A stretch of DNA of 64,000 bases from an uncultured Pelagibacteraceae bacterium. GTDB taxonomy: Bacteria > Pseudomonadota > Alphaproteobacteria > Pelagibacterales > Pelagibacteraceae. The notes beneath the pieces are model-generated. The model had not been told where the DNA came from and ran no database searches. It saw nothing but the letters and a program-made list of their open reading frames with translations. Position numbers and translations under genes: made by a program. The stretch's first letter is position 1; each line of letters opens with the position of its first letter. The stretch spans positions 62,001 to 126,000 of the forward strand of contig CACAFC010000001.1 of assembly GCA_902531765.1 (NCBI GenBank), given 5' to 3'. Shown piece after piece: positions 3,601-6,432 of this stretch.

Positions 3601-4087
3601 TAATGAAATAATTAATTCAAATATCGCTGCAACTTTATTAAAAATACAAGAGAGAAAAACTGCCAAAGGAAATCCTTATGCTGTTTTAAAATTAACTGAT
3701 CTAACTAGTGTTTTTGAATTATTCATTTTTTCTGAGGTTTTAGAAAAAAATCGTGATATTTTGAAAGAAGGGTCATCAATAATATTAACTTTGGCAAAAT
3801 CTGTTTCAGATGAAGAAAATCGTTTTAAGAGAATAAATGTTCAGAAAATAGCCTCACTTTCAGAGTTGATTAATAAACCAATCGAAGAGGTAATTTTTAA
3901 CTTAAAATCATTAAATGAATTAAACGAAATCTCAAAAATTATCCCAAAAGATGGAAATACAATTGTTAAAATTAAATTACGAGACCAAAATAATGAATTA
4001 GATTTTACACTTAAGAATAAGAGAAATATTGACAGAAAAATGTTAAATATAATTAGAAATAAAGAGATTTCTGCAATTATTCGATAA
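671..4087 (+). CDS. dnaE: DNA polymerase III alpha subunit
   Basis: 1138 aa; PHP-like N-terminus (HTQFSICEGA), PDFDIDFCEEKRD, GPGRGSGAGSLVAW, YGVIIYQEQVMQIA motifs; overlaps lolD by 14 bp. Confidence 0.96.
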   Translation: MQESNSENFNHLKIHTQFSICEGAIKIDDLKDISKDKKLKALGLCDTSNLCGALEFAEKLSKSGSQPIIGTQINFKLNDTTGLLPLFALNEDGYKTIIKLSSLSFLKNDDLSDPHLNINELLNNTEGVAIFSGTINGLFGQLFNKGKFSEISEIFSKLKANYGDRFYIEIQRHGDQNEKEFEKFNLISSKKLDIPLIATNEVFYINKDMHEAHDALICIKNKTYVNEKNRVRFSNHHYLKSSSEMVDLFFDLPEALENNYNFPFRCNFRPLSSKPILPNISSDKGISADEILKKDSLDGFNEKFIKIFNLENKDFASDKNYLKYKDRLDHELEIIIKMNYASYFLIVSDYIKWAKENDIPVGPGRGSGAGSLVAWCLSITDVDPIRFNLIFERFLNPDRISMPDFDIDFCEEKRDLVFEYLKKKYENSVAHIITFGKLKARMVIRDVGRVLGLAYGFVDSISKMIPFDPSRPQNLTECIAGEPRLQKLINEDSRVKKLTDLSLKLEGLNRNVATHAAGVVIADKKLTEIVPLYKDATSDLLLPSTQFDMYSAENAGLIKFDFLGLKTLTVINNTQKLIKKKDKKFNIENINFEDQKVFDLLSSGKTVGLFQIESAGMREALMQMKPNHIEDIIALVALYRPGPMSNIPIYNDCKHGKKTPDYLHPLLEDILRPTYGVIIYQEQVMQIAQKLSGFTAGQADILRRAMGKKKRAELEKQKQSFISGAVNNGISKDVAAGIFLKIEPFAEYGFNKSHAAAYAIISYQTAYLKTYYPKEFIAASMTMDISNQNKLSEFYEELKRLKIKIVRPDINECYADFRTDGEKFYYALGAIKAVGYEAVSNIVEERIKNGKFSSINDFLNRVNPKDINKLQLEGLVKAGAFDNINLNRQSLFNSIPSFITKSKNIYENRSANQIDLFGENNTSDSEVIIKIDDWKFEERLSKEFESVGFFISDHPLNQFKEIFVDYNIKDYLNFNNDNEIINSNIAATLLKIQERKTAKGNPYAVLKLTDLTSVFELFIFSEVLEKNRDILKEGSSIILTLAKSVSDEENRFKRINVQKIASLSELINKPIEEVIFNLKSLNELNEISKIIPKDGNTIVKIKLRDQNNELDFTLKNKRNIDRKMLNIIRNKEISAIIR

Positions 4088-4144
4088 TTTTAAGCTTGTT
4101 AAATAAAAAAAATCTTTGTAAATAGTCATTAAAATTAACAAAAA

Positions 4145-4217
4145 CGCACACAGTTTTTGGTTTTATACCTCCGGTCCTTTATTGGAAATTACTGTGGTGG
4201 CTTAACCGGGAAAAAAT
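4145..4217 (+). ncRNA. Candidate structured leader of rpsB (ribosomal protein S2 cis-regulatory RNA)
   Basis: 130-bp, relatively GC-rich intergenic region; CACAGT (4149-4154) pairs with ACTGTG (4191-4196), CCGGT (4171-4175) pairs with ACCGG (4205-4209); the helices interleave as a pseudoknot just upstream of the ATG. Confidence 0.75.
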
Positions 4218-5027
4218 ATGAAAATACCTAACGTTACAATTCAACAATTATTAGAAGCTGGGGTTCATTTAGGACACAAAACGCTTAGATGGAACCCAAA
4301 AATGAAAAAATATATTTTTGGCAAAAGAGATTCTATTCATATTATAGATCTAACTCAGACTTTAGAACTTACTAAAATTGCACTAGAAAAAATACATGAA
4401 GTTATATCAAATAATGGAAAAATATTATTTGTTTCAACAAAAAAACAAGCTTCAGAAGCTGTAGCAGAAGTAGCTAAAGAAACTGATCAATATTTTGTAA
4501 ATTATAGATGGTTAGGAGGAATGCTAACTAATTGGGGAACTATATCAAATTCAATAAAAAAACTAAAACAATTAGAATTAAATTTAGTTTCTGAAAATAG
4601 AGGTTTTACAAAAAAAGAACTTCTTAAAATGAGTGTTAAAAAGGACAAACTACAAAGATCATTAGGTGGAATCGCTGAGATGAAAAAGGTTCCTGATTTA
4701 GTATTTATTATAGATACAAATTACGAGTCACTTGCTATTCAGGAGTCAGTTAAACTAGGAATCCCGATTGTTGCAATTTTAGACAGTAATTCAAATCCTG
4801 ATGGTATTGATTATCCAATCCCAGGAAATGATGATGCTAGAAGAGCAATTGATCTATATTGTAATTTAATTAAAGAAACTATTGATTCAGCAAAAAGCTC
4901 AATTCCTGTAGTCGAAAAAAAAGATAGTGTAAAAAAAGATACTAAATCATCAAAAACAGTACAAGAAAAAGATAGAGAAAAATTAGAAGAAAAATTTAGT
5001 GAGAAAACGAAAGAGACAATTAATTAA
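4218..5027 (+). CDS. rpsB: 30S ribosomal protein S2
   Basis: [63 protein letters not shown]-rich C-terminal tail. Confidence 0.98.
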
Positions 5028-5028
5028 T

Positions 5029-5880
5029 ATGAGCGATGTTGAAAAAGTAAAAAAGTTAAGAGTTGCTACAGGAGCTGGTTTTAAAGACTGCAACTTAGCA
5101 ATAAAAGAAGCTAATGGTGATCTAGATAAGGCAGTGGAGATTTTAAGAGTAAAAGGAATTTCAAAAGCATCAAAAAAAATGTCAAGAGAAGCAAAAGAAG
5201 GTGTTGTTGCAATTAGTGGGGATGAGAAAAAGACCTCAATAATCGAAGTTAATTGCGAAACAGATTTTGTAGCAAAAAATGATGATTTTATAAATTTTGT
5301 GAAAGAGATAAGTGAATTAAATAATCAAAATGACTCTAATCTTGACAATCTAAAGAAAGCTAAAATGAAAAATGGTTCCTCTGTTGAGGATAATTTAGTT
5401 GCGTTGATTGCTAAAATCGGAGAAAAAATAACTATTGGACAAACAAAAACTATCTCAAACTCTTCGTCAACTAATTACCAATATTTACATACAGTGGTTA
5501 AGGATAACTTGGCAAAACTAGCTGTAATTGTCTCGTTGGAAACTAAAGAAAATTCAGAAAGTGTAAAAACATTTGGTAAACAATTATCAATGCATATTGC
5601 AGCTTCAAATCCTTTAGCTTTAGAGTCCAAATTAATTGACAAAGCAATCATTGACAAAGAGCAAGAATTAATAACAGAAGAACTAAAAAATTCAGGTAAA
5701 CCAGAGAACATAGCTAAAAAAATAAGTTTAGGAAAAATGAATAAATTTAAAGAGGAAAATGCTCTTATGACCCAGCCTTGGGTAATGGAACCAAAAAAGA
5801 AAGTTCAAGATGTTTTAGAAGATCTTGCTATTAATGGTTTAAAGATTAAGGAATTTAGCAGAATAAAAATAGGTGAATAG
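5029..5880 (+). CDS. tsf: Elongation factor Ts (ATG at 5029 preferred over the GTG at 4999 in the ORF track)
   Basis: [45 protein letters not shown]; follows rpsB. Confidence 0.96.
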
Positions 5881-6432
5881 ATGTTTGATGAAAAATCACA
5901 TAGCTTAAAAATGGATAAAGCTATTGAGGTGTTCTCTAAAGAGTTATCATCATTGAGAACTGGAAGAGCAAATGCAGCAATGTTAGATCTCGTTAAAGTA
6001 GATGTCTATGGTCAACAAATGCCCATTAATCAGGTTGGCAGCATAACAACACCTGAACCAAGAATGATTAATATTCAAGTTTGGGACCAAAATAATGTGA
6101 ACCTAGTAGATGCCGCTATCAAGAAATCAGAGCTTGGGTTAAATCCTCAAATTGATGGGCAATTAATCAGATTACCAATACCAGAACTAAATGAGGAAAG
6201 AAGAACAGAACTTAAAAAATTAATTAAGTCTATGGGCGAAAAATGTAAAATTTCAATTAGAAATATAAGAAGAGATGCTAATGAAGAACTTAAAAAACTT
6301 TTAAAATCAAAAAAAATTGGTGAAGATGAAGAAAAATCTTTCGAAAAAAATGTTCAGATAATCACCGATAAACATATAGCAATTGTTGACGAAAAAATTT
6401 CAACTAAAGAAAAAGAAATAATGACAATATGA
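5881..6432 (+). CDS. frr: Ribosome recycling factor
   Basis: ELSSLRTGRANAAMLDLVKVDVYGQQMPINQVGSI; IRNIRRDANEELKKL. Confidence 0.97.
   Translation: MFDEKSHSLKMDKAIEVFSKELSSLRTGRANAAMLDLVKVDVYGQQMPINQVGSITTPEPRMINIQVWDQNNVNLVDAAIKKSELGLNPQIDGQLIRLPIPELNEERRTELKKLIKSMGEKCKISIRNIRRDANEELKKLLKSKKIGEDEEKSFEKNVQIITDKHIAIVDEKISTKEKEIMTI

Follow-up and report, generated by a model that had tools for sequence, protein, structure and literature searches.

The analysed stretch of DNA, 64,000 nucleotides of an uncultured Pelagibacteraceae bacterium and called the window below, carries the rpsB and tsf genes downstream of dnaE, which ends at 4087. A promoter-like motif and a structured RNA leader lie between dnaE and rpsB. 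The features of this region are the following.

4096 to 4101, forward strand: candidate -35 element TTGTTA, a conserved SAR11 motif
4119 to 4124, forward strand: candidate -10 element TAAATA, after a 17 nt spacer, also a conserved SAR11 motif
4145 to 4154, forward strand: 5' strand of stem P1, CGC-A-CACAGT with the bulged A4148, assigned by inspection and covariation
4159 to 4169, forward strand: hairpin P2, GGT/ACC, 3 bp (4159-4161 with 4167-4169), extended to 4-5 bp in certain relatives
4171 to 4175, forward strand: 5' strand of the pseudoknot, CCGGT, in junction J2-3, assigned by conservation and from Meyer et al. 2009
4176 to 4185, forward strand: hairpin P3, CC/GG, 2 bp (4176-4177 with 4184-4185), 3 bp in one related clade
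4190 to 4199, forward strand: 3' strand of P1, with ACTGTG at 4191-4196 and then GTG
4205 to 4209, forward strand: 3' strand of the pseudoknot, ACCGG, at -13 to -9 relative to the rpsB start codon
4210 to 4217, forward strand: A-rich spacer of 8 nt with no Shine-Dalgarno (SD) motif, in a genome whose 16S anti-SD is canonical
4218 to 5027, forward strand: rpsB, ribosomal protein uS2, 269 aa
5029 to 5880, forward strand: tsf, elongation factor Ts, following rpsB in the same direction

Further downstream, the tsf-frr junction (5880-5881) lacks the pyrH gene (UMP kinase) that usually separates the two. TIGR02075 gave no above-cut-off match in the source genome or in 10 others of its family, some of them complete (e.g., G011, apparently HTCC1062), while pyrH is located within 3 kb of the leader in 3/3 genomes of a second SAR11 family.

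A preliminary description of this DNA had proposed two interleaved helices, CACAGT (4149-4154) with ACTGTG (4191-4196) and CCGGT (4171-4175) with ACCGG (4205-4209), placed 8 nt before an ATG at 4218. All of these coordinates proved exact to the base, and the GC-rich patch that it pointed out has 41% GC, compared to 28% for the window. The proposed H-type pseudoknot stood as far as the interleaving is concerned, but the fold is not a bare H-type: P2 and P3 are enclosed by P1, forming a three-stem junction closed by the pseudoknot, and P1 is also longer than the six pairs first described. It continues past the bulged A4148 by C4147-G4197, G4146-U4198, and C4145-G4199, the second of which is unpaired in 11/87 relatives and is better named an internal mismatch. 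U4190 has a partner, position 4155, in relatives only.

We aligned 87 distinct SAR11 leaders and scored 20 structure pairs. Standard pairs occupied 95.2% of the pair cells, and 10 of the 20 pairs changed on both sides at least once; none of 500 shuffles was as high in pairing or in two-sided changes, and when the partners were displaced by 1-3 columns, pairing fell to 28-52%. On the rpsB coding-sequence tree, 20 compensatory events were detected, versus 0-3 for the slid controls. P1 contributed 18 of these 20 events, with two-sided changes in 7/10 of its pairs. The P2 and P3 cells were paired in 92% and 91% of cases, respectively, with little covariation in either. Covariation, which the preliminary description had named as the check on its two helices, is strong for the first of them and modest for the second, the pseudoknot, where it consists of one compensatory change in SAR11 and a two-pair flip between Alpha- and Gammaproteobacteria.

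The pseudoknot was paired in 99.1% of cells in the 87 leaders, a value that includes four spurious broken cells from two rows of the alignment A1 (L066 and L078) that are one column off at the junction. CCGGT/ACCGG is present in 180/183 Alphaproteobacteria (SAR11 included) and in 151/153 SAR11 sequences. The compensatory change was found in the SAR11 leader L047 (CCTGT/ACAGG), and GGGGT/ACCCC is present in E. coli and 29/30 sampled Gammaproteobacteria, where two of the C-G pairs seen in Alphaproteobacteria are replaced by G-C. A pattern search for further pseudoknot variants (TGGNGGNNNAACDGG) was too loose, returning mostly unrelated sites, and was abandoned.

The near-invariance of the pseudoknot in SAR11 makes pairing and sequence conservation hard to separate there. 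The fold could be real and CCGGT/ACCGG still be kept mainly as sequence contacts for uS2/bS1, the pseudoknot contributing little; both strands are almost invariant in the 183 Alphaproteobacteria, and the SAR11 leader L173 (genome G159) has lost the outer pair uncompensated (CCGGT/ACCGA). The compensatory L047 and the two flipped pairs of Gammaproteobacteria argue against this explanation, which we consider improbable. Still less probable is that the RNA alternates between the pseudoknot and another hairpin, UCCGGU/AUUGGA (4170-4175/4181-4186), which the energy model favours and which is part of the minimum-energy fold predicted for this single leader sequence: across SAR11 the hairpin is paired in 74.6% of cells, compared to 99.1% for the pseudoknot, and was rejected on these numbers.

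The promoter-like motif is conserved. It reads TTG-N18/19-GTA and, searched as TTG-N17..20-GTA, was detected in 66/86 SAR11 rpsB upstream regions, compared to 3.9 in shuffles (maximum 10); the motif was found by comparison of these regions, and a standard sigma-70 consensus scan missed it. The motif suggests that transcription probably starts near 4131, ~14 nt before P1, in which case the mRNA would open with the leader. We found no terminator between the leader and rpsB. A stand-alone small RNA instead of a leader would fit the type given by Rfam (Gene; sRNA) and the ncRNA feature tff/T44 annotated in E. coli. To this possibility we give very little weight, considering the absence of a terminator before rpsB, the end of the element, which in SAR11 always lies 6-10 nt ahead of the start codon, and the link to rpsB wherever it was checked.

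A perfect 6 bp helix interleaved with a perfect 5 bp helix turns up in 19% of dinucleotide shuffles and at 29% of window positions. If 7 or more G-C pairs are required, a level reached at 4145-4217, the frequencies fall to 0.6% of shuffles and 0.09% of positions. The folding energy computed without the pseudoknot is unexceptional (z -0.36), and single-sequence energy is uninformative here. Since the 6+5 bp pattern is weak against chance and the energy ordinary, the case for the leader rests on the comparative evidence. RNAalifold, applied to the SAR11 leader alignment A1, returned only two competing pairs besides the pseudoknot helix, missing P1 because the program cannot draw P1 and the knot together. 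Chance complementarity in AT-rich DNA, suggested by the frequency of such helices in shuffles (19%) and the unremarkable energy, is already refuted by the strong covariation, together with order-wide conservation, and its probability is negligible.

A model built from the SAR11 leaders matched 167/198 SAR11 genomes and 136/149 good assemblies, with one match per genome among the genomes listed; the Rfam model RF01815 at E up to 0.1 matched 109/198. A search for the RpsB protein covered 20 of the 31 genomes with no match, and rpsB was absent from all 20 assemblies, while the control search recovered rpsB in 7/7 genomes, distant ones included. Among the genomes tested, none had rpsB without the leader, and the leader was always upstream of rpsB in all SAR11 genomes where both could be checked. 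For the class Alphaproteobacteria, RF01815 matches at E up to 0.01 were detected in 128/192 genomes. One SAR11-model match, L175 (G126:C48:10086-10182), is 97 nt long, compared to the usual ~76 nt, with its 5' half altered or enlarged.

The best Rfam match of the locus is the rpsB model RF01815 (4145-4226, 34.3 bits, E 4e-5). The covariance search put forward in the preliminary description accordingly gave the expected family, at a score under the gathering cut-off of 40 bits. None of the 198 SAR11 genomes passes this cut-off (SAR11 maximum, 39.4 bits), and the leader of G011 scores 33.3 bits. The failure to pass reflects the RF01815 cut-off and not biology, since G011, apparently the very organism that the motif was described from, fails as well. 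The S2 leader that the preliminary description ascribed to Meyer et al. 2009 is real: the paper reports the rpsB leader motif in the dnaE-rpsB gap of 'Ca. Pelagibacter ubique', built of P1, a three-pair P2, a two-pair P3, and a five-pair pseudoknot that joins J2-3 to the extension on the 3' side of P1 (PMC2704228). In G011 our match is located at 873211-873292, in the published HTCC1062 gap (873155-873283), with rpsB starting from 873284. The motif has also been noted in the SAR11 strain HIMB5 (PMC6429828). The element at 4145-4217, directly upstream of the rpsB ATG at 4218 as in its relatives, with a long covarying P1, a three-stem junction with short P2 and P3, and a five-pair pseudoknot, has exactly the published anatomy. 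It is an ordinary member of the already published S2 leader class, to which the preliminary description had assigned it.

The less familiar, SAR11-wide and lineage-specific point is the compaction of the leader against the start codon. The spacer between pseudoknot and start codon measures 6-10 nt (median 8) in 139 leaders from the SAR11 family of the source genome and 8-10 nt in 14 leaders of the second SAR11 family. In 30 other Alphaproteobacteria it measures 9-23 nt (median 17), and in 31 Gammaproteobacteria 14-46 nt (median 23). An SD-like motif was detected in the spacer in 7/139 leaders of the first SAR11 family, 0/14 of the second, and 29/30 of the other Alphaproteobacteria. The 3' strand of the SAR11 knot (-13 to -9) occupies the usual place of the SD. 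SD loss at rpsB is in keeping with weak SD usage overall: an SD-like motif stands in the usual place in 8/56 window genes (14%), counted on uncurated start codons, versus 3-4/56 (5-7%) for control stretches. The loss should not be over-read, because SD usage in the window is weak in general.

What stands before rpsB is a structured, conserved leader, fixed in position and preceded by a conserved promoter-like motif. We interpret it, with a probability of roughly 85%, as the SAR11 version of the cis-acting uS2 leader on the rpsB-tsf mRNA, repressing via uS2 feedback. The E. coli leader mediates repression of rpsB-tsf translation by excess uS2, for which bS1 is required (reviewed in PMC10931766). 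By analogy, uS2 would be the ligand, repression the outcome, and bS1 the cofactor in SAR11 too. The upstream promoter would produce a transcript starting ~14 nt before P1, and the RNA would fold into P1, two tiny stems, and the pseudoknot returning the 3' tail to the junction. When uS2 exceeds the 30S supply, it would bind and stabilise the fold, which in E. coli involves the help of bS1. The stabilised fold would block 30S docking around the start codon, decreasing rpsB translation and, by coupling, that of tsf.

The geometry suggests that the pseudoknot, once stabilised by uS2, would stand directly in the way of a 30S subunit at the start codon. Sequestration of the initiation region, as the preliminary description had it, is something we infer: the 3' strand of the knot lies at -13 to -9, with no base pairs to an SD or to the start codon itself. 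Repression in E. coli requires a conserved bulge that is distant from the ribosome-binding site (RBS), the RBS is located outside the operator, and the mechanism is unsettled (PMC10931766). Direct 30S blocking is not simply transferable from E. coli, because the RBS is outside the operator there. For the compacted SAR11 leader, with the pseudoknot in the SD place, we tentatively suggest that repression may be a direct exclusion of 30S at an SD-less start, a possibility that we rate as rather less than even. If this is true, SAR11 would have a simpler version of a mechanism unsettled in E. coli.

SAR11 is among the most abundant groups of ocean bacteria, with very small genomes and few regulators, and nearly every sampled species has this RNA element on S2. 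At the RF01815 cut-off the entire order goes undetected, apparently even HTCC1062, from which the motif was first described, so genome annotations will lack the leader. The short SD-free arrangement offers a small natural model for studying how uS2 acts on the mRNA that encodes it.

Comparison with known systems relates the leader to three RNA elements. The t44 element, the E. coli rpsB-tsf operator (RF00127), is likewise located upstream of rpsB-tsf, with a P1 beginning CACACAC..., a GUGGAGGC.UAAC end, and a GGGGU/ACCCC pseudoknot in the corresponding place. In E. coli it differs by longer stems and by 24 nt with an SD (AGAGG) between the pseudoknot and the start codon, and it has been experimentally tested. 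The RF00127 model had no match in the source genome; E. coli scores 83.5 bits. RF01815 and RF00127 look homologous, yet they have no common clan, and both are typed sRNA. The SAM-V riboswitch (Meyer et al. 2009) also places a SAR11 pseudoknot within about ten nt of a start codon, where it would close the start site by comparable physical means; its sequence, gene, and ligand differ, and the likeness is one of layout only. With the rpsB motif itself (RF01815) the leader has in common the gene, the gap, the bulged A in P1, the short P2 and P3, the pseudoknot between J2-3 and the P1 tail, and the conserved CCGGU and AACCGG. The SAR11 members are distinguished in this class by scores of at most 39.4 bits, a very short P2 and P3, and a pseudoknot 6-10 nt from the start codon, mostly with no SD.
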